In this document: in pieces, positions 21,788 through 62,282 of the stretch
How positions within the stretch are numbered: the first letter of the stretch is position 1
Layout: every line of letters begins with the position of its first letter
Source: Paraeggerthella hongkongensis
Lineage (GTDB): Bacteria; Actinomycetota; Coriobacteriia; Coriobacteriales; Eggerthellaceae
Length of the DNA stretch: 64,000 bases
NCBI RefSeq assembly: GCF_003340345.1
Contig: NZ_PPTQ01000012.1
Location: 1 to 64,000 of the forward strand
Direction of reading: 5' to 3'
Program-made: the position numbers and the translations under genes
The notes under the pieces: generated by a model
The model's input: the letters and a program-made list of their open reading frames with translations, nothing else
What the model was told of the DNA's origin: nothing
Databases searched by the model: none

Positions 21788-21999
21788 CCGCTTCACCCCC
21801 GCTTCTTGCTTCTTCTATAAGCAAGTATATCAAAGTAAGATAAGGCAACCTTGTTGCGGCGCGGAAACGGACCGATCCACCACACGCACGACGGCGAAAA
21901 CGGGAGGTCGCCCTGTCGTTGCGGGCCGCGCAACAAGCGCGTTCGCCGTCGGGGCCGCGAGCCGTCGCGCGGCGGTCGCGGTCGCTGCCGATCCCCTGC

Positions 22000-22147
22000 C
22001 GCTGTCAAAACGGACGAGTTTTGCTGGTCCTCGAATCAGGATAATGGCAGGCGACGAGCCTCTGACCTGGCATGTTATAAAACGCCCACAGCCGGGTCGC
22101 TCCGAAAAAGCTGAAAACCGCCGCAAAACTCGCTCGTTTTGACAGCG
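22000..22147 (+). repeat. family 1 palindromic element, copy A (148 bp)
   Basis: Ends are 25-bp inverted repeats starting CGCTGTCAAAACGGACGAG, 23 of 25 positions paired. The core contains the invariant TCCTCGAATCAGGA mini-hairpin and a second small hairpin around CGCTCCGAAAAAGC. By hand alignment it is about 89% identical to copy C and has exactly the same length. Similarity continues about 40 bp past the right end (GCGC...GGGCCGC). It lies in the 529-bp gap 21788-22316, which otherwise holds only GC-rich sequence also resembling the upstream flank of copy C (CGCCGTCGGGGCCGCG is shared). Confidence 0.9.
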
Positions 22148-22316
22148 AGGGGGGCGCCACGCGCCGCGGGAGCAAGATGGGGCCGCCACGCGAACTGAAA
22201 AAGCGGGCGCAAGTCGCCGCCCCAGGCCCCCGGCACGCCGGATGCCCACGCCCGCGCCGGCAGAGCCGGACGCCCCATGCCCGCACGCCACACCCCACCC
22301 CGCCGCCAGCCTGCGG

Positions 22317-23957
22317 CTACACCTCGTCCAGAAGAGCCAACAGCTCCTGCTTCTTGTGAATGCCCAGCTTGGCGTAGATGCGCTTGCTGTGAGTGCGCAT
22401 CGTGTTCTCGGATATGAACAGCATTTCGGCAATGGCGGGACCTGAATGCCCGCGCGCAACAAGCTCCATGACCTCGGCTTCTCGACTGGACAACCCGTAC
22501 AACTCGCTCAGTCTCAGACACTGCTTCGACAGCCGATCCACCAAAGGCGCCGATCCCGCAGCCGCAACCGCAGACGAAGCCGCGGAAGAGCCCGCCTCGC
22601 CCGACACCGCAGGATTCGAGCCCGCCGCTCGCGTGGCCCGGCCCTTCGCCGCGCTCGCCCGGCCCTCTTCGGACGCATCCGCCTCGGCCGTCGTGCGAGC
22701 GCGCACGGCGCGGCTCACGGCAATCTCCGCCGACGCCTCCTTCCGGCGAGCCTTCGGCGTGAGCATAAGAAACTCCAGGCGGTTGGTGTGCAGCTTGCCC
22801 ACCCTGCGACCGACCAACGCAACCAGCAACAAAACGTACAGCGCAACCAGTCCCACGAACGAAAGCTGCTCGACGCCCAAAGTGACTTCGCTGCCGGAAG
22901 CATAACCCACCACGTACCCGCACATTTGCAGAAAGTACGTGATGGTGCCGTAGAACGCGAAAATGAACACCGGATTGATGCCGCTATCGCGGGATATCTG
23001 GCCGCAGTGCATCATGACCAGCACGGTGGCCAGCATGAAGCAGGCGTACGTAACCCCGCTGCCAATGATGGTGAACCACTCGCCCGCGAACGGAAGCACG
23101 ATCAAGCAAGTCGCCGCCACCGGGAACAGCACCCGAAAAACGCTCATCAAGTCAACGTGGATGGTGCGTATACGCCATGCTCCGTAAAACGCCGCCACCA
23201 CGGCCAGCAGCGCGAACATGGAAAAGATGTTGATGGTGCTGAGCAGGTCCTGGTGCGTAACCGCAATAAAGCGAATGGCGCCCGAGCAAAATCCCAGCGC
23301 GCCCACCGAAAGCGCCGGCAGCAAGCTCTCGCGCAAGGCGTTGCGATACACCAGCGCATGCTCGCGCGGAACGTCGTCGAACATAGGCTGCGCGTCGTCG
23401 GTGCCCTCCGCCGCGATCCACAGGCACAGCCCCGCCAACGGAACCAGCACAAGCGGAATCAAGTACGCCGTCAAAGCCGTGGGAATGAAGCACAGGAAAA
23501 AGTACAGCAGCGCCGAAAAGCCCGTGCCCTTGATGAGCGCCATGTTCCCCCGTGCGCTGTCGAGCGAAGCGAACACGCGCTGCCAGCTCATAAGGTATCC
23601 GGCCGATCCCACGCCTATGAGCGCTGCGGCAACCACGATAAGCGCGAACGCCAGCGATTCCAGGTACATAGCGCCCACCAGCATCAGCGGACCAAACGCC
23701 AGCGGAACGGAAAACGCCAAAACATGGGCCCGCCGGGCGAAGGCCGGACGCGCCCATGTGACCGCCATGCATACGCAGAACGCAGCCCAAAACGACGCTA
23801 TCTGCACCGTGTAAAATACAATGGTAGTAAGCGGGGTCTGGCACGGTGCGGACAGATACGGGAAGATTCCTCCCCAAATCGACGTTGCGTTTATCGACAG
23901 GAATGCAGCGTACCCGAAGCTGGGGACGTCCGGTCTGAGTGCGGTTGGCGCGCGCAT
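22317..23957 (-). CDS. LuxR-type regulator with N-terminal membrane domain
   Basis: 546 aa. About 12 hydrophobic segments fill residues 15-400, followed by an Ala/Ser-rich linker, then a LuxR helix-turn-helix: LSSREAEVMELVARGHSG and ISENTMRTHSKRIYAKLGI at the C-terminus. This architecture is abundant in Eggerthellaceae, where the genes usually sit divergently beside molybdoenzyme or flavoprotein operons. The same holds here, with the dms-like operon starting 273 bp away on the opposite strand. It probably senses a substrate or membrane state and activates that operon. Start at 23957 behind AAAGGAGGG. Confidence 0.85.
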   Translation of the reverse strand: MRAPTALRPDVPSFGYAAFLSINATSIWGGIFPYLSAPCQTPLTTIVFYTVQIASFWAAFCVCMAVTWARPAFARRAHVLAFSVPLAFGPLMLVGAMYLESLAFALIVVAAALIGVGSAGYLMSWQRVFASLDSARGNMALIKGTGFSALLYFFLCFIPTALTAYLIPLVLVPLAGLCLWIAAEGTDDAQPMFDDVPREHALVYRNALRESLLPALSVGALGFCSGAIRFIAVTHQDLLSTINIFSMFALLAVVAAFYGAWRIRTIHVDLMSVFRVLFPVAATCLIVLPFAGEWFTIIGSGVTYACFMLATVLVMMHCGQISRDSGINPVFIFAFYGTITYFLQMCGYVVGYASGSEVTLGVEQLSFVGLVALYVLLLVALVGRRVGKLHTNRLEFLMLTPKARRKEASAEIAVSRAVRARTTAEADASEEGRASAAKGRATRAAGSNPAVSGEAGSSAASSAVAAAGSAPLVDRLSKQCLRLSELYGLSSREAEVMELVARGHSGPAIAEMLFISENTMRTHSKRIYAKLGIHKKQELLALLDEV

Positions 23958-24048
23958 GTACGGAATCCCTCCTTTGGTTGTCGTGGTGCCATTCTAACAG
24001 ACGCTCTCATGCCGAAAAACGGGGTGAAACTCAGCCATTCGACAATAT

Positions 24049-24099
24049 GGTGATAGCTTTTACCTGGGGAAACGAAAATATCACAACATTCTGGTGACA
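24049..24099. promoter_or_regulatory. candidate regulator half-sites upstream of dms operon
   Basis: Three related hexamers occur within 51 bp: GGTGATA (24049-24055), the inverted TATCAC (24079-24084) and GGTGACA (24093-24099). They lie 130-180 bp before dmsA in the divergent region, where the LuxR-type regulator would be expected to bind. A TATAGT at 24121 could be a -10 element. Assignment is by position only. Confidence 0.3.
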
Positions 24100-24230
24100 A
24101 GGTTGCAACCCCGAAACATCTATAGTTTTCGCCAGTTCGAACTGCATGGACGTGCCCTGCCGAGCGTTGACGAGGCGAAGGCAAGGCGCACGAAGCAAAC
24201 GAGGAACCTACGAGTATTGGAGGGGGTTGC

Positions 24231-26660
24231 ATGTCGAACACCACGACATCCCAGGGACTGACCCGCCGCACCTTCGTGAAGGCGACGGGCGCGCTCGGCG
24301 CGCTTGCCGCCGCAAGCGGAGCGGCATCCCAAAGCCTGTTCGCCGACGCTCCGCAAGCCTATGCCGAAGACGCGGCTGGCAACGAGGAGATCGTCTGGAC
24401 GCACTGCCACGTCAACTGCGGAGGCGCGTGCCCGCTGCAGTGCCATGTGCAGGACGGTGAATTGAAGTACGTCGAATCCGACAACACGGGAGACCCCGCG
24501 TTCGGCGCCGTCGAGGCGCGCGCTTGCCTGCGCGGCCGCTCCATCCGCCCGTGGCTGGGAAGCGCCGACCGGCTGAACTACCCGATGAAGCGCGTCGAGG
24601 GCACGAAGCGCGGCGAGGGTCAGTACGAGCGCATCAGCTGGGACGAGGCGCTCGACATCATCGCCAGCGAATTCACGCGCATCACGAAGCAGTACGGCAA
24701 CGAGGCCGTGTTCATCCAGGAATGCTCGGGCGTCGAGCAGAACATCATGATGAACAATCCCTTCTTCCGCCTGTTCAACCTGCTGGGCGGCGAAGTCACG
24801 CGCTACGGCAGCTACTCGAGCGCGTCCATCAGCTTCGGGGCGTACCCGTACACGTACGGCAAGTCGTGGGGCAACCGCTCGCTCAAGACCATCCAGGAAG
24901 GCGAGCTTGTCGTGTTCTTCGGCTTCGCGCCGAACGACATGCGCATGGCCGGTGACGGCCCGGGTTACGACCTGAACGTGGTTCGCGAGAAGAAGAACGC
25001 GCGCGTCATCGTCATCGACCCGCGCCGCAACGAAACCTGCACGAACCAGGGCGCCGAATGGATTCCCATCGTACCCGGCACCGACGCAGCCCTGGTAGCG
25101 GGCCTTGCCCACGTGCTCATTACCGAAAACTTGGTTGACCTGGACTTCCTGCACACGTACTGCGTGGGCTTCGACGAGGAGACCATGCCCGAAGATGCTC
25201 GCGGCAAGAACCTGTCCTACCGCGACTACATCCTGGGCACCGGCTACGACCAGGTGGAGAAGACCCCCGCGTGGGCATCCGCCATCACGAAAGTGCCGGA
25301 AGAGCGCATCGTGAAGCTGGCGCACGAGATTGCCGAATCCGACCCGTGCTACATCTGCCAGGGCCTTGGGCCCCAGCGACACACTAACGGCGACAACGCC
25401 TCGCGCGCCATCATGGTGCTGCCGCAGCTGGTGGGCCAGGTAGGCAAGCCGGGCACCACGTCGGGCGGGACCATCGGCAACGACGACATCGGCCTGAACA
25501 CCCTGCCCACGGGCAAGAACCCCATCAAGGCGAAGTTCCCGAACTTCCTGTGGCCCGAAGCCATCCGCGACGGCGCGAAGCTGACCGCCACCAACGCGGG
25601 CATTCAGAATGCCGACGGCCTGAAGGTGGGAGTCAAATTCCTGGTGAACTACGGCAACAACATGATGGCCAACCAAAACGCCGACATCAACTTCACCACC
25701 GATATCCTACGCGACGAAACCCTGTGCGAGTTCATCCTGCAGTACGACATCGCCTGGACCGACTCGTGCAACTGGGCCGACATCGTCCTGCCCGACTTGA
25801 CCCCGCAGGAAACGTACAGCCTGACGGCCGCCGGCGAGTCCAACGACGTCGAGGGCATCCGTTTCGGCCAGCCCCTCTACGGTCCGAAGTTCGAGCGCCG
25901 CGAAGTCTACGAGGTATGCGGCGAGCTGGCGAAGCGCCTGGGCGTGTACGACGAGTATTCCGAGGGCGGCCTGACCCGCGAAGACTGGTGCCGCAAGCTC
26001 TACGACGAGCTGCGCGAAGACAAGCCCGAGCTTCCCACGTACGACGAGGGCGTGAAGATGGGCGCGTTCACGTACGACATCGAACCGTCCACTAAGGTTG
26101 ACGACTTCATTTTGGATCCCGTGGCAAACCCGCTTAAAACGGCAACCGGAAAGATCCAGATCTACTCCCCCGAGCTGGCGAAGATCGCCGAGACGTGGGA
26201 TCTGCAGGAAGGCGACGTGATCTCGGCCATCCCCGTGTACTATCCTGGTTTCGACGGCCCCGATTCCACGACCGAAGAGTTCCCGTTCCAGATTGTGGAC
26301 TTCCATCACAAGGGAACCACCCACTCGACGTACGCCGCCAACCCGACGCTGCACAAGCTGGCTCCGTTCCAGGCGTGGATCAACCCGATGGACGCCGCTT
26401 CACGCGGCATCGCGGACAACGACAAGGTTCGCCTGGTCAGCGCACAGGGAGAGATCCGCACGACGGCCAAGGTGACGAACCGCGTCATTCCCGGAACCAT
26501 CATGTACCCGCAGGGAGCCTGGCATCGCGCCGACATGCAGGGCGACCGCATCGACCACGGCGGTTGCAGCAACACGCTGACCAGCCGCCATTGCAACCCG
26601 GTGTCGAAGGGCACGGGCCAGCACAGCGTAATCGGCACGATCGAGAAGGTGGAGGGGTAA
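24231..26660 (+). CDS. dmsA: DMSO reductase-family molybdopterin oxidoreductase, catalytic subunit
   Basis: 809 aa. A twin-arginine signal (TRRTFVKATGALGALAAA) at the N-terminus sends it across the membrane folded. The 4Fe-4S motif CHVNCGGACPLQC with a later ARACLRGRS follows. The segment around residues 194-202 (YGSYSSAS) probably supplies a Ser ligand to Mo, as in DmsA-type enzymes. The C-terminal molybdopterin-binding part has HSTYAANPTLHKLAP and YPQGAWHR. With the B and C subunits it should reduce a terminal acceptor (an S- or N-oxide or other organic compound) using menaquinol. Start behind GGAGGGGG. No TorD/DmsD chaperone gene is nearby. The natural substrate is not known. Confidence 0.9.
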   Translation: MSNTTTSQGLTRRTFVKATGALGALAAASGAASQSLFADAPQAYAEDAAGNEEIVWTHCHVNCGGACPLQCHVQDGELKYVESDNTGDPAFGAVEARACLRGRSIRPWLGSADRLNYPMKRVEGTKRGEGQYERISWDEALDIIASEFTRITKQYGNEAVFIQECSGVEQNIMMNNPFFRLFNLLGGEVTRYGSYSSASISFGAYPYTYGKSWGNRSLKTIQEGELVVFFGFAPNDMRMAGDGPGYDLNVVREKKNARVIVIDPRRNETCTNQGAEWIPIVPGTDAALVAGLAHVLITENLVDLDFLHTYCVGFDEETMPEDARGKNLSYRDYILGTGYDQVEKTPAWASAITKVPEERIVKLAHEIAESDPCYICQGLGPQRHTNGDNASRAIMVLPQLVGQVGKPGTTSGGTIGNDDIGLNTLPTGKNPIKAKFPNFLWPEAIRDGAKLTATNAGIQNADGLKVGVKFLVNYGNNMMANQNADINFTTDILRDETLCEFILQYDIAWTDSCNWADIVLPDLTPQETYSLTAAGESNDVEGIRFGQPLYGPKFERREVYEVCGELAKRLGVYDEYSEGGLTREDWCRKLYDELREDKPELPTYDEGVKMGAFTYDIEPSTKVDDFILDPVANPLKTATGKIQIYSPELAKIAETWDLQEGDVISAIPVYYPGFDGPDSTTEEFPFQIVDFHHKGTTHSTYAANPTLHKLAPFQAWINPMDAASRGIADNDKVRLVSAQGEIRTTAKVTNRVIPGTIMYPQGAWHRADMQGDRIDHGGCSNTLTSRHCNPVSKGTGQHSVIGTIEKVEG

Positions 26661-26663
26661 GCC

Positions 26664-27281
26664 ATGACGCAGTACGGTTTCTATTTCGACGCGACGCGCT
26701 GCACGGGTTGCAAGACCTGCGAAGCGGCCTGCCGCGACTATCACGACCTGCCGCTGGACTATTCGTACCGCCGCGTGTACGAACTTGAAGGCGGCGGATG
26801 GACCCAGGCGGCCGACGGCACCTGGAGCACCGATTCCTACACGTACTACACGTCGTTCGCATGCAGCCATTGCGACAACCCGGCATGCACGCACGTATGC
26901 CCCACCGGCGCAATGCACAAAGACGATAACGGCATTGTTTCCGTGGATACGCATCGCTGCATCGGCTGTGGTTACTGCGAGCTGGCCTGCCCGTACGGCA
27001 ACCCGCACGTCGATCGCCAGAAGGGCCACAGCGTGAAGTGCGACGGCTGCGCGTCCCGTGTAGCCGCAGGCAAGCAGCCCATGTGCGTGGAGGCATGCTC
27101 TATGCGCGCCATCGAGTTCGGGCCGATCGACCAGCTGGAGCAAGGCGACGGCCGCGCGGCGGTAGCGCCCTTGCCCGATCCCAGCGTGACCACGCCGAAC
27201 TTTTACATTAAGAACTGCGCGGCAGCGCAGCCGTGCGGCTCGACCTCGTGCGTCGTGGCCAACAAGACGGAGGTGAAGTAA
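26664..27281 (+). CDS. dmsB: 4Fe-4S ferredoxin-type electron transfer subunit
   Basis: 205 aa, the size of DmsB. Four cysteine groups that bind four 4Fe-4S clusters are visible: CTGCKTCEAAC, CSHCDNPACTHVCP, CIGCGYCELACPYG and CDGCASRVAAGKQPMCVEAC. It passes electrons from the membrane anchor to the molybdenum subunit. It starts 3 bp after the dmsA stop and lies immediately before the anchor gene. Confidence 0.93.
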   Translation: MTQYGFYFDATRCTGCKTCEAACRDYHDLPLDYSYRRVYELEGGGWTQAADGTWSTDSYTYYTSFACSHCDNPACTHVCPTGAMHKDDNGIVSVDTHRCIGCGYCELACPYGNPHVDRQKGHSVKCDGCASRVAAGKQPMCVEACSMRAIEFGPIDQLEQGDGRAAVAPLPDPSVTTPNFYIKNCAAAQPCGSTSCVVANKTEVK

Positions 27282-27282
27282 C

Positions 27283-28131
27283 ATGGGTTCCGGATTCGAG
27301 CATGCCGCACTGGCGGTGTTCACCACCCTCGCTCCCATGGGCGCAGGAGCGTTCATCGTCCTGACGTACGCGTTCTTGGCGGGCAAGCCCGACCAGGCGG
27401 CCGCAAAGCGCCTCGACCGCTGGACCGCGCTGCCGCTGGCAGTACTGGCCGTGGGCTTTGCGGGTGCGTTCATGCACCTGGCCAGCCCTCTGGGAGCTTT
27501 CGGGGTATTCGCGGGCGTGGGATCCTCGCCGCTTTCGAACGAGATCCTGGCGGGCGTGCTGTTCGTCGTAGCGGCTGTGATCTATTGGGTGCTTGGCCTG
27601 GCAGGAAAGCTGTCCGAGGGCGCGCGTCGCGCGTTCCTGATTGCGCTGTCGGTTCTGGCCGTCGTGTTCTCGGCGTTCTGCGGCCTGGCGTACATGATGC
27701 ACACCATCCCCACGTGGAACACCCCGACGTCCATTGTTCAGATGGTGGGCTTCATGGTGGCCGGCGGCACGGTGCTGGGATTCTGCACTGTAGGATTCGC
27801 CCAGGTAGGACTGCCGAAGGGCGCCGGCACGGTAGCTCTGGCCCTCACGCTGGCCGGCGTTGTGGTAGCCTCTGCGGGCTTCGGCATGCAGATCGCCGGG
27901 CTTGAAGGCATCCGCAACATCTGGGGATCGGCAGCGCAGCTGGTTCCGGCCATCGGCATGATGCTGGCAGCGTTCGCCGCGTGCGGTCTGCTGGGAGCAG
28001 TGCTGGCCTACGTCGCGTCGAAGAAGGCGTTCGCGCCGGCGCTTATGGTAGGCTCGTGCGCCATCGTGGCTGTCGGCGTGTTCGTAGCGCGCATCGGATT
28101 CTACGGACTGTTCATGGGAATTGCCCTGTAA
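27283..28131 (+). CDS. dmsC: DmsC-like membrane anchor
   Basis: 282 aa with eight hydrophobic segments, matching DmsC, the menaquinol-oxidising anchor of DMSO reductases. The FMHLASPLGAFGVF segment followed by SSPLSNEIL is the conserved helix 2-3 region. The gene starts one base after the dmsB stop and ends before a strong terminator at 28159-28197. Confidence 0.88.
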   Translation: MGSGFEHAALAVFTTLAPMGAGAFIVLTYAFLAGKPDQAAAKRLDRWTALPLAVLAVGFAGAFMHLASPLGAFGVFAGVGSSPLSNEILAGVLFVVAAVIYWVLGLAGKLSEGARRAFLIALSVLAVVFSAFCGLAYMMHTIPTWNTPTSIVQMVGFMVAGGTVLGFCTVGFAQVGLPKGAGTVALALTLAGVVVASAGFGMQIAGLEGIRNIWGSAAQLVPAIGMMLAAFAACGLLGAVLAYVASKKAFAPALMVGSCAIVAVGVFVARIGFYGLFMGIAL

Positions 28132-28158
28132 CATCTCGTACAAAGCAGTATCCTCCCG

Positions 28159-28197
28159 GAATACGGGCGAGCGGTCTCCCTCCGCTCGCCCGTATTC
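28159..28197 (+). terminator. intrinsic terminator after dmsABC
   Basis: A perfect 16-bp stem (GAATACGGGCGAGCGG and complement) with a 7-base loop is followed by TTTATA. It separates dmsABC from the second anchor gene. Confidence 0.9.
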
Positions 28198-28269
28198 TTT
28201 ATACTGGTGGTTGCCGATGCACGTATCGGAAACCACCGCCCACGACACGCGAAAAGAGGCCCGACGCTC

Positions 28270-29172
28270 ATGGAGACGGCGATCAACGAGATCACGCTCG
28301 TGCTGTTCACCACCATCGCACCCGCAGGCGTGATAGGCTATCTGCTTATGGCCGCGGCCATCGTACGCGCCAGCAAGAAGGACCGCGCCGACGCCATCAG
28401 TCGCCATCTGGTGGTTCCGCTTGTGCTGGCCATTTCCGGCCTCATCGCATCGGCCACGCATCTGGGCACCCCGGCGAACGCGCTGTACGTGATTACGGGC
28501 ATAGGCAGGTCGCCGCTTTCGAACGAAGTGGTGGCCGCTGTGGCGTTTCTGGCACTTGGCGGCATCTACTGGATCATCTCGTTTCGCAACGACCTTACCC
28601 GCGCCTTTCGCACCGCTTGGCTTGTGCCCACCATCGCGGCGGGCCTCGCGTTCGTGTGGTTCATCGGCGTGGCGTATTCGGTGCCCTCGGTTCCCACGTG
28701 GAACCTGCCCACCGCGCCGCTGACGCTATGGCTGAACGCGCTGTCGAGCGGGCCCATCGTGGGACTGTTCGGGCTGGCGCTTGCTCGCCAGGAGCCGTCG
28801 CGGCGCGCGGCCTTCGTCGCGCTTGCGGTTACGGCCTGCGCAGCTGCGGCGAACGCGGGTGTTCTGGCTTTGGAGTGGCAAGCGCTTGAAGGCATTGTCA
28901 CCACCACGACGCGCGCGACCGACCTTGTTCCCAACCTTGGCCTTTTGCTGGGCTTGTACCTGACGTTGGAAGCCGGGGCCGTTGCTTTGTGCGCCGTTGC
29001 CTCGCTGCGCAAAACGCTGCCAGCGCCCGCGTCGATCGACCCCTTCACCGTTGCCCGGCGCACCGGCACGGTGCGGCTGCTGCTCACTGCGGGCGCCGGA
29101 GTGCTGGCCCTTGCCGCTTCGTTCGCCGTGCGCTTCGCGTTCTACGCCATGCACATGACCGTGGGCGTGTAG
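28270..29172 (+). CDS. second DmsC-like anchor protein
   Basis: 300 aa with about eight hydrophobic segments and clear resemblance to the preceding DmsC: THLGTPANALYVITG with RSPLSNEVV matches FMHLASPLGAFGVFAG with SSPLSNEIL, and PTWNLPTAP matches PTWNTPTS. It is therefore a diverged paralogue. It lies beyond the terminator that ends dmsABC and has its own start (28270), so it may be expressed separately, giving an alternative anchor or an accessory. The ribosome site (AGAGG) is rather distant, so the precise start is uncertain; an in-frame ATG-like start at 28207 would add 21 residues. Confidence 0.75.
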   Translation: METAINEITLVLFTTIAPAGVIGYLLMAAAIVRASKKDRADAISRHLVVPLVLAISGLIASATHLGTPANALYVITGIGRSPLSNEVVAAVAFLALGGIYWIISFRNDLTRAFRTAWLVPTIAAGLAFVWFIGVAYSVPSVPTWNLPTAPLTLWLNALSSGPIVGLFGLALARQEPSRRAAFVALAVTACAAAANAGVLALEWQALEGIVTTTTRATDLVPNLGLLLGLYLTLEAGAVALCAVASLRKTLPAPASIDPFTVARRTGTVRLLLTAGAGVLALAASFAVRFAFYAMHMTVGV

Positions 29173-29213
29173 GAACCCCGAACCTGCCCGGCTTGGACCG
29201 CCCGGCCCCCCTC

Positions 29214-29361
29214 CGCTGTCAAAACGGACAAGTTTTTCTGGTCCTCGAATCAGGATAATGGCCGGCAGCAAGCTTCTGACCTGGCATGTTGCAAAACGCC
29301 CGCAGCCGGGTCGCCCCGAAAGGGCAGAAAACCGCCGCAAAACTCGTCCGTTTTGACAGCG
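29214..29361 (+). repeat. family 1 palindromic element, copy B (148 bp)
   Basis: Same length and orientation as copies A and C; about 95% identical to C by hand alignment. Arms 29214-29238 and 29337-29361 pair at 23 of 25 positions. It lies 41 bp after the second anchor gene in the 426-bp gap before the Mop gene. The rest of the gap holds nothing I recognise. Confidence 0.9.
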
Positions 29362-29598
29362 AGGGGCACGGCGCGCACCGCGTGAGCAGGATTGAGCCGC
29401 TGCCGCAAGCGCCGACCGCAGGTCGAAAGCGAGACACGGTGACCGGGCGCCCCGAATACCGCCCGCAAAAGCCGGTCAAGAATACAAATGGGAGACGATT
29501 CCGCCCGACTTCTTCACGAAACCGTCGGGTGCTGCGATACTGCGGCCATACCCAATCGGCCTCCGACATACCGGAGGCCCCAACGAAAGGAATCGCAC

Positions 29599-30024
29599 AT
29601 GAAGATTTCCGCTCGCAACCAGCTTAAAGGCACCGTTTCGGGAATAACCGAAGGAGCCGTCAACGGCGTGGTGTCCATCAACTTGGGATCCACCGTAGTC
29701 AAAGCCGACATCACCATGGAGGCCATCGCCGACCTGGGGCTTGCCGAGGGCATGAGCGCCACGGCTATCATCAAGGCCAGCAACGTCATGTTCGCTGCCG
29801 GAACCAAGCGCATCGCAGGCATCTCCGCCCGCAATCAAATTCCCGGAACCATCGCATCCGTGAAAAAGGGCGCCGTCAACGGCCAAGTGGCGTTGAAAAC
29901 CGCCGAGGGTTTCCTCATCAAGGGATCCATCACCAACGAGGCCATTGAAGAGCTGGGGCTGGCAGAAGGCGGCGAGGCGCTTGCCATCGTGAAGTCCACC
30001 GACGTTATGGTGGGCGTGGAGTAG
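29599..30024 (+). CDS. tandem Mop (TOBE) molybdate-binding protein
   Basis: 141 aa made of two Mop domains of about 68 residues: the first begins ISARNQLKGTVSGITEGAVN and the second ISARNQIPGTIASVKKGAVN. Free-standing di-Mop proteins (molbindins) bind molybdate or tungstate and buffer it for cofactor synthesis. Lying next to a molybdoenzyme operon fits that role. The chosen start (29599) has AAAGGA in front; a longer upstream frame is unlikely. It is flanked on both sides by family 1 repeat copies. Confidence 0.9.
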   Translation: MKISARNQLKGTVSGITEGAVNGVVSINLGSTVVKADITMEAIADLGLAEGMSATAIIKASNVMFAAGTKRIAGISARNQIPGTIASVKKGAVNGQVALKTAEGFLIKGSITNEAIEELGLAEGGEALAIVKSTDVMVGVE

Positions 30025-30255
30025 CCCCTCCCCCATCATCAGGTCGACGCGCTTGAGCTGCGTCGACAGTCCCTTCCTTTGGAGTCGGAGCCCGCAAAAG
30101 GCGCCGGCTCTTTTCACGCGCGGCGACAACGGGGCAGGAGGCCGCCCTGCCGTCGCGAGTCGCGCGAACCGTTGCAAGCCGCTGCGCGGCGGGCACGCTC
30201 GCCGTCGGGGCCGCGCGAACCGTTGCGCGACGCCCGTATTCGCCGTTGTAGCCGT

Positions 30256-30403
30256 CGCTGTCAAAACGGACGAGTTTTGCTGGTCCTCGAATCAGGATAA
30301 TGACCGGCGGCAAGCTTCTGACCTGGCATGTTGCAAAACGTCCGCAACCGGGTCGCCCCGAAAGGGCGGAAAACCGCCGCAAAACTCGTCCGTTTTGACA
30401 GCG
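30256..30403 (+). repeat. family 1 palindromic element, copy C (148 bp)
   Basis: The most perfect copy: its 25-bp arms (30256-30280, 30379-30403) are exact complements. The core carries TCCTCGAATCAGGA and a GCCC-CGAAA-GGGC hairpin. It lies in the 534-bp gap between the Mop gene and the first ECF sigma gene. The left flank (30140-30255) resembles the flank of copy A and contains GCGCGAACCGTTGC-type short repeats. Confidence 0.9.
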
Positions 30404-52917: not shown

Positions 52918-54300
52918 CTAGCGCACCTTCGCCACGATAAACCCGAGCGTAGCAACCGCCATGACGGCGGAGAATCCGAAGGCAACCTGATACGCCAGCG
53001 CCGGGTCCGCCACGCCCGCCGATGTTGCGCCCACCGCCGTGATGGCGAACACCATCACCGACGTTCCCAGCGACGCGCACGCCTGCCGCGCCGCAATGCA
53101 AAACGACGATCCATCAGCGACGATCGGGCGCGGCAGTTTCGCCAAGCTCCACGAAGTCAGCGGCCCCACCAGGCCCGATACTCCCACCGCGCGCACTGCT
53201 TGACAGAGCGTCACCGCCCAAAGCGGCGTGTCGGATTCCAGAAACGACATGAGCACCGCGCCAGCCGCCAGAAACACGCCCGACACCACCGCGACCGGAC
53301 GCACGCCCACGCGGTCGGTCAGCACGCCGGCCAGGGGATTCAACAACAGCGCAGCCACTGTTCCCGGAAGCAGCACCACTCCGGCCTCAAGCGCAGTTCC
53401 GCCGCACAGGCCTTCCACATACAGCGGCACGATCAGGGTAACGCCCATGAACGAGGCGTTCAGCAGGTTTTGCGCCACGAACCCCGCCGTGTACTGGCGC
53501 GATGCGAATATCTCCATCGTAATAAGCGGATGGTCAACCCGCTTTTGCCGACGAACGAACAACGTCAAGAACAACGCACCCAGCACGATGGGAGCCCAAA
53601 TGAACGGACTGCTGGGTGCAAAGCTGCTTGCGTTCGAAAACCCCAGCAGCAACCCGCCGAATCCAATCGTGGACATTGTCAGCGACACGATATCGAGACG
53701 TGCGCCCGTATCACGCGCGGAAGCAGGCTTGATGGCAATGGCCGCGGCAATCGCAAGCATCACCGTAAGGGCGGCCAGCAGCACGAAGAAGCTGCGCCAA
53801 CCCCACGAGAAGCTCATGGCGCCGCCAATGGTAGGTCCGATGTTCGGCGCGAACCCCATAGCCACGCCCGCAATGCCCATGGCGGTAGCCTGACGGCCAG
53901 GCGGGAAGCTGGTCATGGCGATGGTCTGCATGAGCGGCATGAGCAAGCCCGTGGAAACCGCCTGCAAGACGCGCCCCACCAGCAAAACCGCAAAGTTCGG
54001 AGCCAGCAGATCGGCAAGCGCGCCTACCAGGAAAAACGAAAGAGCCAGAAACACATGACGGCGAACCGAGAACCGTCGCGAAAGAAACGTGGCAACGGGA
54101 ACCGTTACCCCAAGCACCAGCATATAGCTGGTCGTAAGCCATTGCCCCAGATCAACAGATAGAGCGAACTCCCCCATGATGTCGCCCAGCATGGCGTTCA
54201 CCGCTGTTTGCGACAGGTTTCCCGAAGCCGAAGCCAATACCACGATGGCGAACAGCGCGTACACCGCACCGCGCTTTCTTGCCTGGTTTTCGCCCGCCAT
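52918..54300 (-). CDS. DHA2-family multidrug MFS exporter
   Basis: 460 aa with about 14 hydrophobic segments, as in DHA2 (EmrB/QacA) exporters. FLSRRFSVRRHVFLALSFF is the cytoplasmic loop 2-3 motif and VGRVLQAVSTGLLMPLMQT motif B-like region; GFAPNIGPTIGG is the antiporter motif C. The start at 54300 (MAGENQARKR) has GGAGGCGGT before it; the open frame upstream extends into the repeat region and is spurious. Substrate unknown. Confidence 0.85.
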   Translation of the reverse strand: MAGENQARKRGAVYALFAIVVLASASGNLSQTAVNAMLGDIMGEFALSVDLGQWLTTSYMLVLGVTVPVATFLSRRFSVRRHVFLALSFFLVGALADLLAPNFAVLLVGRVLQAVSTGLLMPLMQTIAMTSFPPGRQATAMGIAGVAMGFAPNIGPTIGGAMSFSWGWRSFFVLLAALTVMLAIAAAIAIKPASARDTGARLDIVSLTMSTIGFGGLLLGFSNASSFAPSSPFIWAPIVLGALFLTLFVRRQKRVDHPLITMEIFASRQYTAGFVAQNLLNASFMGVTLIVPLYVEGLCGGTALEAGVVLLPGTVAALLLNPLAGVLTDRVGVRPVAVVSGVFLAAGAVLMSFLESDTPLWAVTLCQAVRAVGVSGLVGPLTSWSLAKLPRPIVADGSSFCIAARQACASLGTSVMVFAITAVGATSAGVADPALAYQVAFGFSAVMAVATLGFIVAKVR

Positions 54301-54460
54301 ACCGCCTCCGCTCCAGAACCGTCGCTCCCGCAAGGCCAGTATATCCCAAGCGTTTCGGCAGTAGGGGGAAAAGACCGCCCGCAGGCGCTTGCGCCGATTG
54401 CAGGCGGTTTGCGCTGCTCGTCGGACGAGCCGCGTCGACTTCGACTGAGCCGCGGAGCCT

Positions 54461-54508
54461 CTGGGCCACGGGGTCGCTGGGCCGCTGGGCCACGGGGTCG
54501 CTGGGCCG
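54461..54508. repeat. 24-bp tandem repeat, two perfect copies
   Basis: The unit CTGGGCCACGGGGTCGCTGG plus GCCG occurs twice without change (54461-54484, 54485-54508), with a degenerate third copy after it. It lies 36 bp outside the left arm of the family 2 element in the 514-bp gap 54301-54814. Confidence 0.85.
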
Positions 54509-54544
54509 CTGGACCGCGGAGCCGAGGGGCCACAGGGCCAGGCT

Positions 54545-54752
54545 TGCGCTCGAAAAACCGCTCCCGCTGGCAGGTTTTGACGGTTTGCGGTCGTCAAGCC
54601 GAGCACTGTTCCGGTCGTCGCTCGGCTTCCGTTTCATTTCGCCTGTTCACAGCCTTGAGCTGTCGCGTCGCGCCCTTGCGCGCGACCAACCGGCCAGATA
54701 CGACGACTCCTAAACGTCAAAACCTGCCAGCGGGAGCGATTTTTCGAGCGCA
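54545..54752. repeat. family 2 palindromic element, copy D (208 bp)
   Basis: Inverted arms of 51 bp (54545-54595, 54702-54752) match at 46 positions; the shared core is CGCTGGCAGGTTTTGACG. The 106-bp interior has its own AAGCCGAGC/GCTCGGCTT hairpin. Interior segment 54630-54673 matches the reverse complement of 62153-62196 in copy E at 32 of 44 positions, while arm-specific bases (GGTTTG left, GTTTAGG in the right arm) keep the same order in both copies. Confidence 0.88.
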
Positions 54753-54814
54753 CGGCGCCAAAGCGACAGCAAGGTGGGCGCGCGAGCCGTCAACCCGCGC
54801 ACCCACCTTGCCTA

Positions 54815-55372
54815 TTAGTTGAACGTCTGCTGGGTCTTCTCCAAGCCTACCTGCACAAGCGACAGTGCAGCCTGGGCGCCTCGATCCACCGCGTAAGCGA
54901 AATCGTCGGCCGCCTCCTTCTTAGGCTGCGACAACACCCAATCCACCACGGGCATGCGTCCCGGCGGACGACCGATGCCGATGCGCACCCGAAACCAATC
55001 GCGCGTTCCCAGCTTGTCGCAGATAGAACGCAACCCGTTGTGCCCGGCATGCCCGCCGCCGAATTTCACGCGCACCGTGCCCGGATCGATGTCCAGCTCA
55101 TCGTGCACCACAACCACGTGGTCCGCGTCTACGCCGTAGGCGTTCATCAGCTGCTTGACCGGTCCGCCCGAAGTGTTCATGTAGCTCTGCGGCTTAGCCA
55201 GAATCAAATCATGATCGCGGTACACGCCCTTCGCCGTCAGGGCTCCGCATTCAGTCTTCCAATAGCGCGCGCCCACCTCCTCGGCAAGGGCGTCGACGGT
55301 GTCGAACCCGGCGTTATGCCGCGTATGCGCATACTCCTCGCCCGGATTCCCCAGGCCAACGATTAAGAACAT
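54815..55372 (-). CDS. pth: peptidyl-tRNA hydrolase
   Basis: 185 aa, the normal size. GLGNPGEEYAHTRHNAGF holds the catalytic His, and KPQSYMNTSG, HDELDIDPG and GGGHAGHNGLRSI complete the family pattern. It releases tRNA from peptidyl-tRNA dropped by ribosomes. The start at 55372 is fixed by homology; its ribosome site (GGAAAG) is weak. It probably follows prs in the same transcript, as often seen. Confidence 0.93.
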   Translation of the reverse strand: MFLIVGLGNPGEEYAHTRHNAGFDTVDALAEEVGARYWKTECGALTAKGVYRDHDLILAKPQSYMNTSGGPVKQLMNAYGVDADHVVVVHDELDIDPGTVRVKFGGGHAGHNGLRSICDKLGTRDWFRVRIGIGRPPGRMPVVDWVLSQPKKEAADDFAYAVDRGAQAALSLVQVGLEKTQQTFN

Positions 55373-62072: not shown

Positions 62073-62282
62073 TTGCGCACGAAAAAACGCGTTCGCTGGC
62101 AGGTTTTGACGGTTTGAGGTCGTCGGAGTTTGCGAATCGGGCGCACCCGAAAGCGCGACGAAGCAGGCCAACGCTGTGACCAGCGGAAACAAAACGCAGG
62201 TCGCGCGGCGGCAAACGCGATGCCCAACTCGACGACCCCTAAACGTCAAAACCTGCCAGCGAGAGAGACTTTTCGTGCGCAA
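62073..62282. repeat. family 2 palindromic element, copy E (210 bp)
   Basis: Arms begin TTGCGCACGAAAA and share CGCTGGCAGGTTTTGACG with copy D. The left arm has GGTTTGAGGTCGTC and the right arm (complemented) GTTTAGGGGTCGTC, in the same left/right order as copy D, although the interior matches copy D only in the reverse orientation. It lies in the 639-bp gap 61793-62431, the rest of which holds the tandem repeat at 62310-62399 and no gene. Confidence 0.88.

Follow-up and report, generated by a model that had tools for sequence, protein, structure and literature searches.

Three 148-bp palindromic repeats, here called copies A, B and C, lie around a molybdoenzyme gene module in a 64,000-nucleotide stretch of a Paraeggerthella genome (contig NZ_PPTQ01000012.1, positions 1 to 64,000; hereafter the window). 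On balance, our comparative analyses favour the view that they are members of a genome-wide family of fixed-length, protein-bound chromosomal sites in Eggerthellaceae, built in outline like dimers of repetitive extragenic palindromic (REP) sequences. As far as we have searched, this is a previously unrecorded family of selected intergenic palindromes of Eggerthellaceae; a search of the open-access literature found no earlier account of repeats of this kind in either Eggerthella or Paraeggerthella. Interspersed bacterial palindromes are usually regarded as selfish or loosely useful debris. Here, about 37 copies per genome conserve both letters and length at fixed sites, with neither coding capacity, RNA covariation nor attachment to a gene class, and the function of such repeats thereby becomes testable in culturable gut bacteria. 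The window's genome (G000; 2.86 Mb, 53 contigs) was compared with that of the sister species, P. hongkongensis DSM 16106 (G001). The three copies, all of the form that we call type 1, and the parts of copy A are the following:

22000-22147, plus strand: copy A, type-1 element of 148 bp (repeat search, alignment)
29214-29361, plus strand: copy B, type-1 element of 148 bp (repeat search, alignment)
30256-30403, plus strand: copy C, type-1 element of 148 bp (its sister ortholog, on contig C36, is split by an insertion sequence, IS)
22000-22024, plus strand: left inverted end of copy A, with the hyphenated palindrome CAAAAC-GGACGA-GTTTTG
22123-22147, minus strand: right inverted end of copy A
22063-22085, plus strand: central core of copy A, TGACCTGGCATGTTATAAAACGC, at the midpoint (family consensus TGACCwGGCATGATGnAAAACGC, with equivalents in Eggerthella copies and in type 2)

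The type-1 element is present about 37 times in the window's genome, counting fragments at contig ends, and about as often in P. hongkongensis DSM 16106. Most copies are intergenic and occupy orthologous sites in both Paraeggerthella species. They are found beside the genes for ribosomal protein L2, EF-P, a GroEL-like Cpn60, complex I and glutamate dehydrogenase, and the flanking genes as a whole mix housekeeping and accessory functions in every relative orientation, without association to any gene class or gene orientation. Such diverse neighbours, in all orientations, imply that the elements do not serve as operators of a single regulon. BLAST searches with the element in 58 other genomes from the family and the order gave no match. 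Of 138 Eggerthellaceae genomes, 22 contain divergent relatives, detected with a covariance model built from 63 copies (best E 3e-9). When 248 genomes sampled across the class were searched at E 1e-4, the 10 matching genomes were all Eggerthellaceae. An exact search of viral contigs found no element, and thus no phage link.

Within the window, coordinates and alignment bear out what had been read from the sequence alone, namely three repeats of 148 bp in a single orientation, starting at 22000, 29214 and 30256. Identities among the three range from 89 to 94%: copy A is 89% identical to both B and C, and B and C show 7 differences in 128 compared bases. All three carry 25-bp inverted ends, each end forming a small palindrome CAAAAC-N6-GTTTTG, and the window contains the end motif TGTCAAAACGRRCGAGTTTTG 6 times, whereas 100 shuffles gave no occurrence. 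The chance of three copies falling within one given 8.4-kb stretch is 2e-4 (Poisson), and that of such a triple anywhere in a genome with 37 copies is about 0.16; copy pairs less than 8.5 kb apart occur genome-wide at the expected frequency. With a triple likely enough to occur somewhere and close pairs no commoner than expected, clustering by itself says little. The greater likeness of A, B and C to each other and their related flanks nevertheless indicate that they are local duplicates.

The anatomy of the family is strict. Full type-1 copies measure 147 bp, plus or minus 1, with almost no indels, though paralogs are often only about 75% identical. Conserved boxes comprise both ends, GGTCCTCaAAccAGGATAA adjoining the left end, the asymmetric core at the midpoint and GGCGAAAAATCGCC adjoining the right end; the stretches between them vary in sequence and are constant in length. 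The same box order, again with a central core, is found in an Eggerthella genome (G097) with at least 13 copies, 11 of which span 140 bp from TGGACAAAA to TTTTGTCCA and the other two 139 and 142 bp. The end sequences differ by genus, TGTCAAAAC in Paraeggerthella and TGGACAAAA in Eggerthella, and the conserved right flank of the Eggerthella copies, TGATGnTTTnnATCAT, has no counterpart in Paraeggerthella. In most of the copies of this Eggerthella sp. (L116-L135), a conserved TGATGnTTTnnATCATnnTTA, absent from Paraeggerthella, directly follows one element end. Two side observations concern the surroundings of type-1 elements. The first few bases outside their ends tend to be complementary to one another, an effect that peaks at the second base (p 0.003 in one species, 0.005 in the other), as though small palindromes enclosed the elements. 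At L030:1649-1730, two additional single end palindromes stand in tandem after a complete element; none was seen at L060, the orthologous site.

A second subfamily, type 2, measures 208 bp in the 14 copies measured in the window's genome, with 50-bp inverted ends, an inner end motif CGTCAAAACC and a TGACCAGG core near the midpoint. Two of its members lie in the window:

54545-54752, minus strand: type-2 element of 208 bp with 50-bp inverted ends, at a site where the sister has type 1
62074-62281, plus strand: type-2 element of 208 bp

The first of them adjoins a GC-rich imperfect 8-bp tandem repeat (about CTGGGCCR; window 54445-54545). At another locus, L074, a type-2 copy adjoins a lone type-1 end.

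The strongest evidence that these sequences matter where they stand comes from orthologous sites. Across 23 pairs of orthologs, differences fall on 43 of 1549 positions (2.8%) in columns with at least 90% conservation among the family's other copies, as against 303 of 1825 (about 17%) in the remaining columns (Fisher P 1e-44). Over 18 pairs, the elements accumulated 261 substitutions (10%) and 4 indels in 2552 aligned bases, compared with 506 substitutions (21%) and 42 indels in 2383 bases of the 70-bp flanks, indels being about 10 times rarer in elements than in flanks. The variable columns are locus-specific and are mostly common to orthologs, not to paralogs, so that wholesale gene conversion offers no explanation. 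The simplest reading of these substitution patterns is purifying selection acting at each site, in place.

Since selection preserves the key letters at every site, the elements probably do something for the chromosome. We propose that the fixed-length double-stranded DNA would be bound by one or more sequence-specific proteins, with a protein dimer on each end palindrome and a further contact on the midpoint core, forming a looped or cruciform nucleoprotein complex that both the constant length and the core would serve. Such a complex would act on the chromosome generally and not on one regulon, in the manner of the bacterial interspersed mosaic elements (BIMEs), for which binding of gyrase and of integration host factor (IHF) is known. 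Several points weigh against this proposal. Protein binding and a chromosomal role are both things that we infer; the selection test covers one species pair, and its P values treat sites as independent. The pattern could partly come from gene conversion confined to the conserved boxes, yet variable bases a few nucleotides away diverge, and site-preserving selection could also act on an RNA constrained in sequence and not in pairing. More tentatively, and with considerable reserve, one may imagine chromosome-organising sites specific to Eggerthellaceae, whose putative dedicated protein would have changed its recognition sequence in each genus together with all copies while geometry and core were kept. 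If true, this would be a chromosome-organising system without known counterpart.

Compensatory base changes are hardly to be found, and the paired columns hold only invariant pairs. The entire element can be folded as a single long hairpin (z between -5 and -8 in the three window copies) with the core at its apex, and this, with its intergenic location, would suit a structured non-coding RNA or a hairpin for RNA processing or termination. However, both strands fold equally and the elements keep no fixed orientation to genes. The inner arms match a partner taken from another copy at least as well as their own, agreement between the two ends of a copy is confined to their outermost bases, and no Rfam covariance model gave a match in the window at gathering score. 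A sequence-constrained RNA is therefore a very unlikely account of the family. Coding capacity was ruled out, as invariant columns occupy all codon positions. The ends carry an outward-facing TTGACA that could suggest a promoter; on the sequence alone, no -10 was seen in the Paraeggerthella flanks.

The ends also recall the crossover sites of site-specific recombinases, whether invertible or lox/dif-like, in which arms surround a 6-bp centre that would be the overlap region, two such sites lying here in inverted orientation. Nonetheless, the two centres within an element match only at chance level (12 of 60, with 11.6 expected; p 0.5), and the orthologs inspected keep the orientation of the interior, which makes such a role extremely improbable.

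The elements could, alternatively, be miniature non-autonomous mobile elements, comparable to miniature inverted-repeat transposable elements (MITEs) or to REP doublets forming hairpins (REPINs), copied in trans in the past, now mostly immobile and without host function. Inverted ends, about 37 dispersed intergenic copies and two subfamilies with differing ends all agree with such an origin, as does the behaviour of type 2, which is far commoner in the window's genome, with at least 128 match pieces or roughly 45 copies, than in the sister (13 pieces). Several type-2 sites have no element in the sister genome, and at two intergenic sites type 2 stands where the sister has type 1 (L139, in window 54000-55100, with L061; L140 with L048). 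Yet, unlike in dead insertions, the conserved columns have been protected in place since the species split. At type-2 sites, no clear target duplication was seen on comparison with the sister, the intergenic DNA being too diverged for a firm call, and for type 1 the comparison offered no clean empty site. Y1 transposases (REP-associated tyrosine transposases, RAYTs; PF01797) have 0 matches in the window's genome and 2 in P. hongkongensis DSM 16106, and genome-wide element searches of the 53-contig draft for an autonomous relative with the same ends returned only copies, end fragments and IS-broken copies. We thus regard a purely mobile nature as rather unlikely.

Insertion sequences have also entered these repeats. 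At least five copies are interrupted at one common point, immediately behind GCCGCAAAAC in the palindrome of the right end: L023 and L072 in the window's genome, and L032, L063 and L148 in P. hongkongensis DSM 16106. The DNA inserted in L072 (L072:1632-3043) encodes an rve/HTH_21 transposase resembling the IS3 family; L072 itself has an intact counterpart in L050. Insertion at a fixed position of an end palindrome parallels the behaviour of two members of the IS3 family with REP sequences as their targets, IS1397 and ISKpn1 (PMC1525189).

The locus at which copies A, B and C stand is composed as follows:

22317-23957, minus strand: membrane protein with a C-terminal LuxR-type (GerE) DNA-binding domain (PF00196)
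24231-26660, plus strand: dmsA-like molybdopterin oxidoreductase (Pfam, genome search)
26664-27281, plus strand: dmsB-like 4Fe-4S protein (Pfam)
27283-28131, plus strand: dmsC-like anchor (PF04976)
28270-29172, plus strand: second dmsC-like anchor (PF04976)
29599-30024, plus strand: Mop-like protein with two TOBE stretches, present in both species (Pfam, locus comparison)
21923-29368: segment missing from the sister's orthologous locus, with A, the LuxR gene, dmsABC, the second anchor gene and B
21865-21999, plus strand: left flank of A, related to the left flanks of C (67%) and of C's ortholog (73%)
22148-22195, plus strand: right flank of A, with weak similarity to the sister junction and to the sequences on the right of B and C

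Pfam annotation agrees with the placement first proposed for the copies. Copy A has a DUF3784 gene on one side and the LuxR gene on the other, B comes behind the second DmsC-like gene, and C behind the TOBE/Mop gene. On the sister's contig C36, sequence corresponding to the window up to 21922 joins directly to that from 29369, with mop and copy C next. The missing segment therefore starts 77 bp before A and stops 7 bp after B, and the A-B interval is a genuine presence/absence, accessory segment whose ends coincide with the elements. The module's dmsA has no ortholog in P. hongkongensis DSM 16106 (best match 49% identity), and its nearest relative among the genomes searched, 66% identical, belongs to another genus.

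The sequence-only reading had proposed that the repeats delimit the dms/mop block and served to insert it. The accessory nature of the A-B segment and the closeness of its ends to A and B speak for this part of the proposal, as do the absence of the dms module from P. hongkongensis DSM 16106 and the flank remnants at the sister junction, where sequences related to the A/C left flank and to the B right flank lie side by side. The idea that the elements are dedicated borders fares otherwise. The whole-genome search found copies scattered beside housekeeping genes, and no repeat is left at the module-less junction on C36, two outcomes that the same reading had itself counted as refuting. Moreover, same-orientation pairs also surround ordinary genes (C50:48402/49785 and C52:61433/63204), and on the left side the flank of C resembles that of its ortholog (79%) more closely than that of A (67%), so the A/C duplication seems older than the species split. 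A role as cassette markers is accordingly improbable, and a pair of such repeats should not be read as the borders of a gene cassette.

The elements were not made for the cassette. If they are instead chromosomal sites of general use, as we favour, exchange between A and B would be a by-product of the homology between copies. Copies and flanks were duplicated locally, and homologous recombination between copies would likely have gained or lost the A-B interval; a crossover between element copies would yield the present arrangement, by gain here or by loss in the sister. As flank remnants adjoin at the sister junction, an element may once have stood there and since have been deleted. Elsewhere in the window's genome, two other close dmsA paralogs (C23:78575 and C4:72062) have type-2 elements about 0.5 and 2 kb upstream (C23:77929-78112 and C4:69803-70013, respectively), a proximity that could be due to chance.

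Compared with known systems, the elements share with MITEs a small size, terminal inverted repeats and dispersal, and differ from them in that no clear target duplications or parent transposon were found and that they hold fixed sites under selection. As do the BIMEs of Escherichia coli, they place inverted palindromes between genes of all kinds; BIMEs are targeted by REP-specific IS, including the IS3-family IS1397, and strain-specific segments are associated with them (PMC1525189), although BIMEs are mosaic and variable in length and their sequences are unrelated. REPINs (Bertels and Rainey 2011, PMC3116915) have the same outline, a constant-length spacer between two inverted palindromes, the whole being copied as one unit and dispersed at random in extragenic DNA. 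REPINs are, however, associated with RAYTs, show compensatory changes and have a less conserved spacer, whereas the elements described here have no RAYT in the window's genome, no compensatory changes and a conserved core. In the CGTC-tagged REPs (Di Nocera et al. 2013, PMC3733652), the tag frequently reads TGTC, and these REPs have no known transposase. With them and their dimers our elements share an unpaired tag (TGTC-AAAAC in type 1, CGTC-AAAACC in type 2), A/T at the stem start, an intergenic location and the lack of a known dedicated transposase; CGTC-tagged REPs also form mostly inverted dimers, with spacers that are sometimes conserved, and some of these dimers lie within larger palindromes. 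Eggerthellaceae were not found among the host families in that study. In contrast to the stems of 8-9 bp and loops of 4-5 nt of CGTC-tagged REPs, type 1 has a stem of 5-6 bp, a 6-nt loop and no CCA tail (the type-2 stem being longer and bulged), and its tags face outward from a constant spacer of about 98 bp with a conserved midpoint core. REP dimers, in particular those of the CGTC-tagged REPs, REPINs and BIMEs are the nearest known kinds; as the defining details of the CGTC families and of REPINs differ, we assign the Eggerthellaceae elements to neither and describe them as REP-dimer-like in outline.

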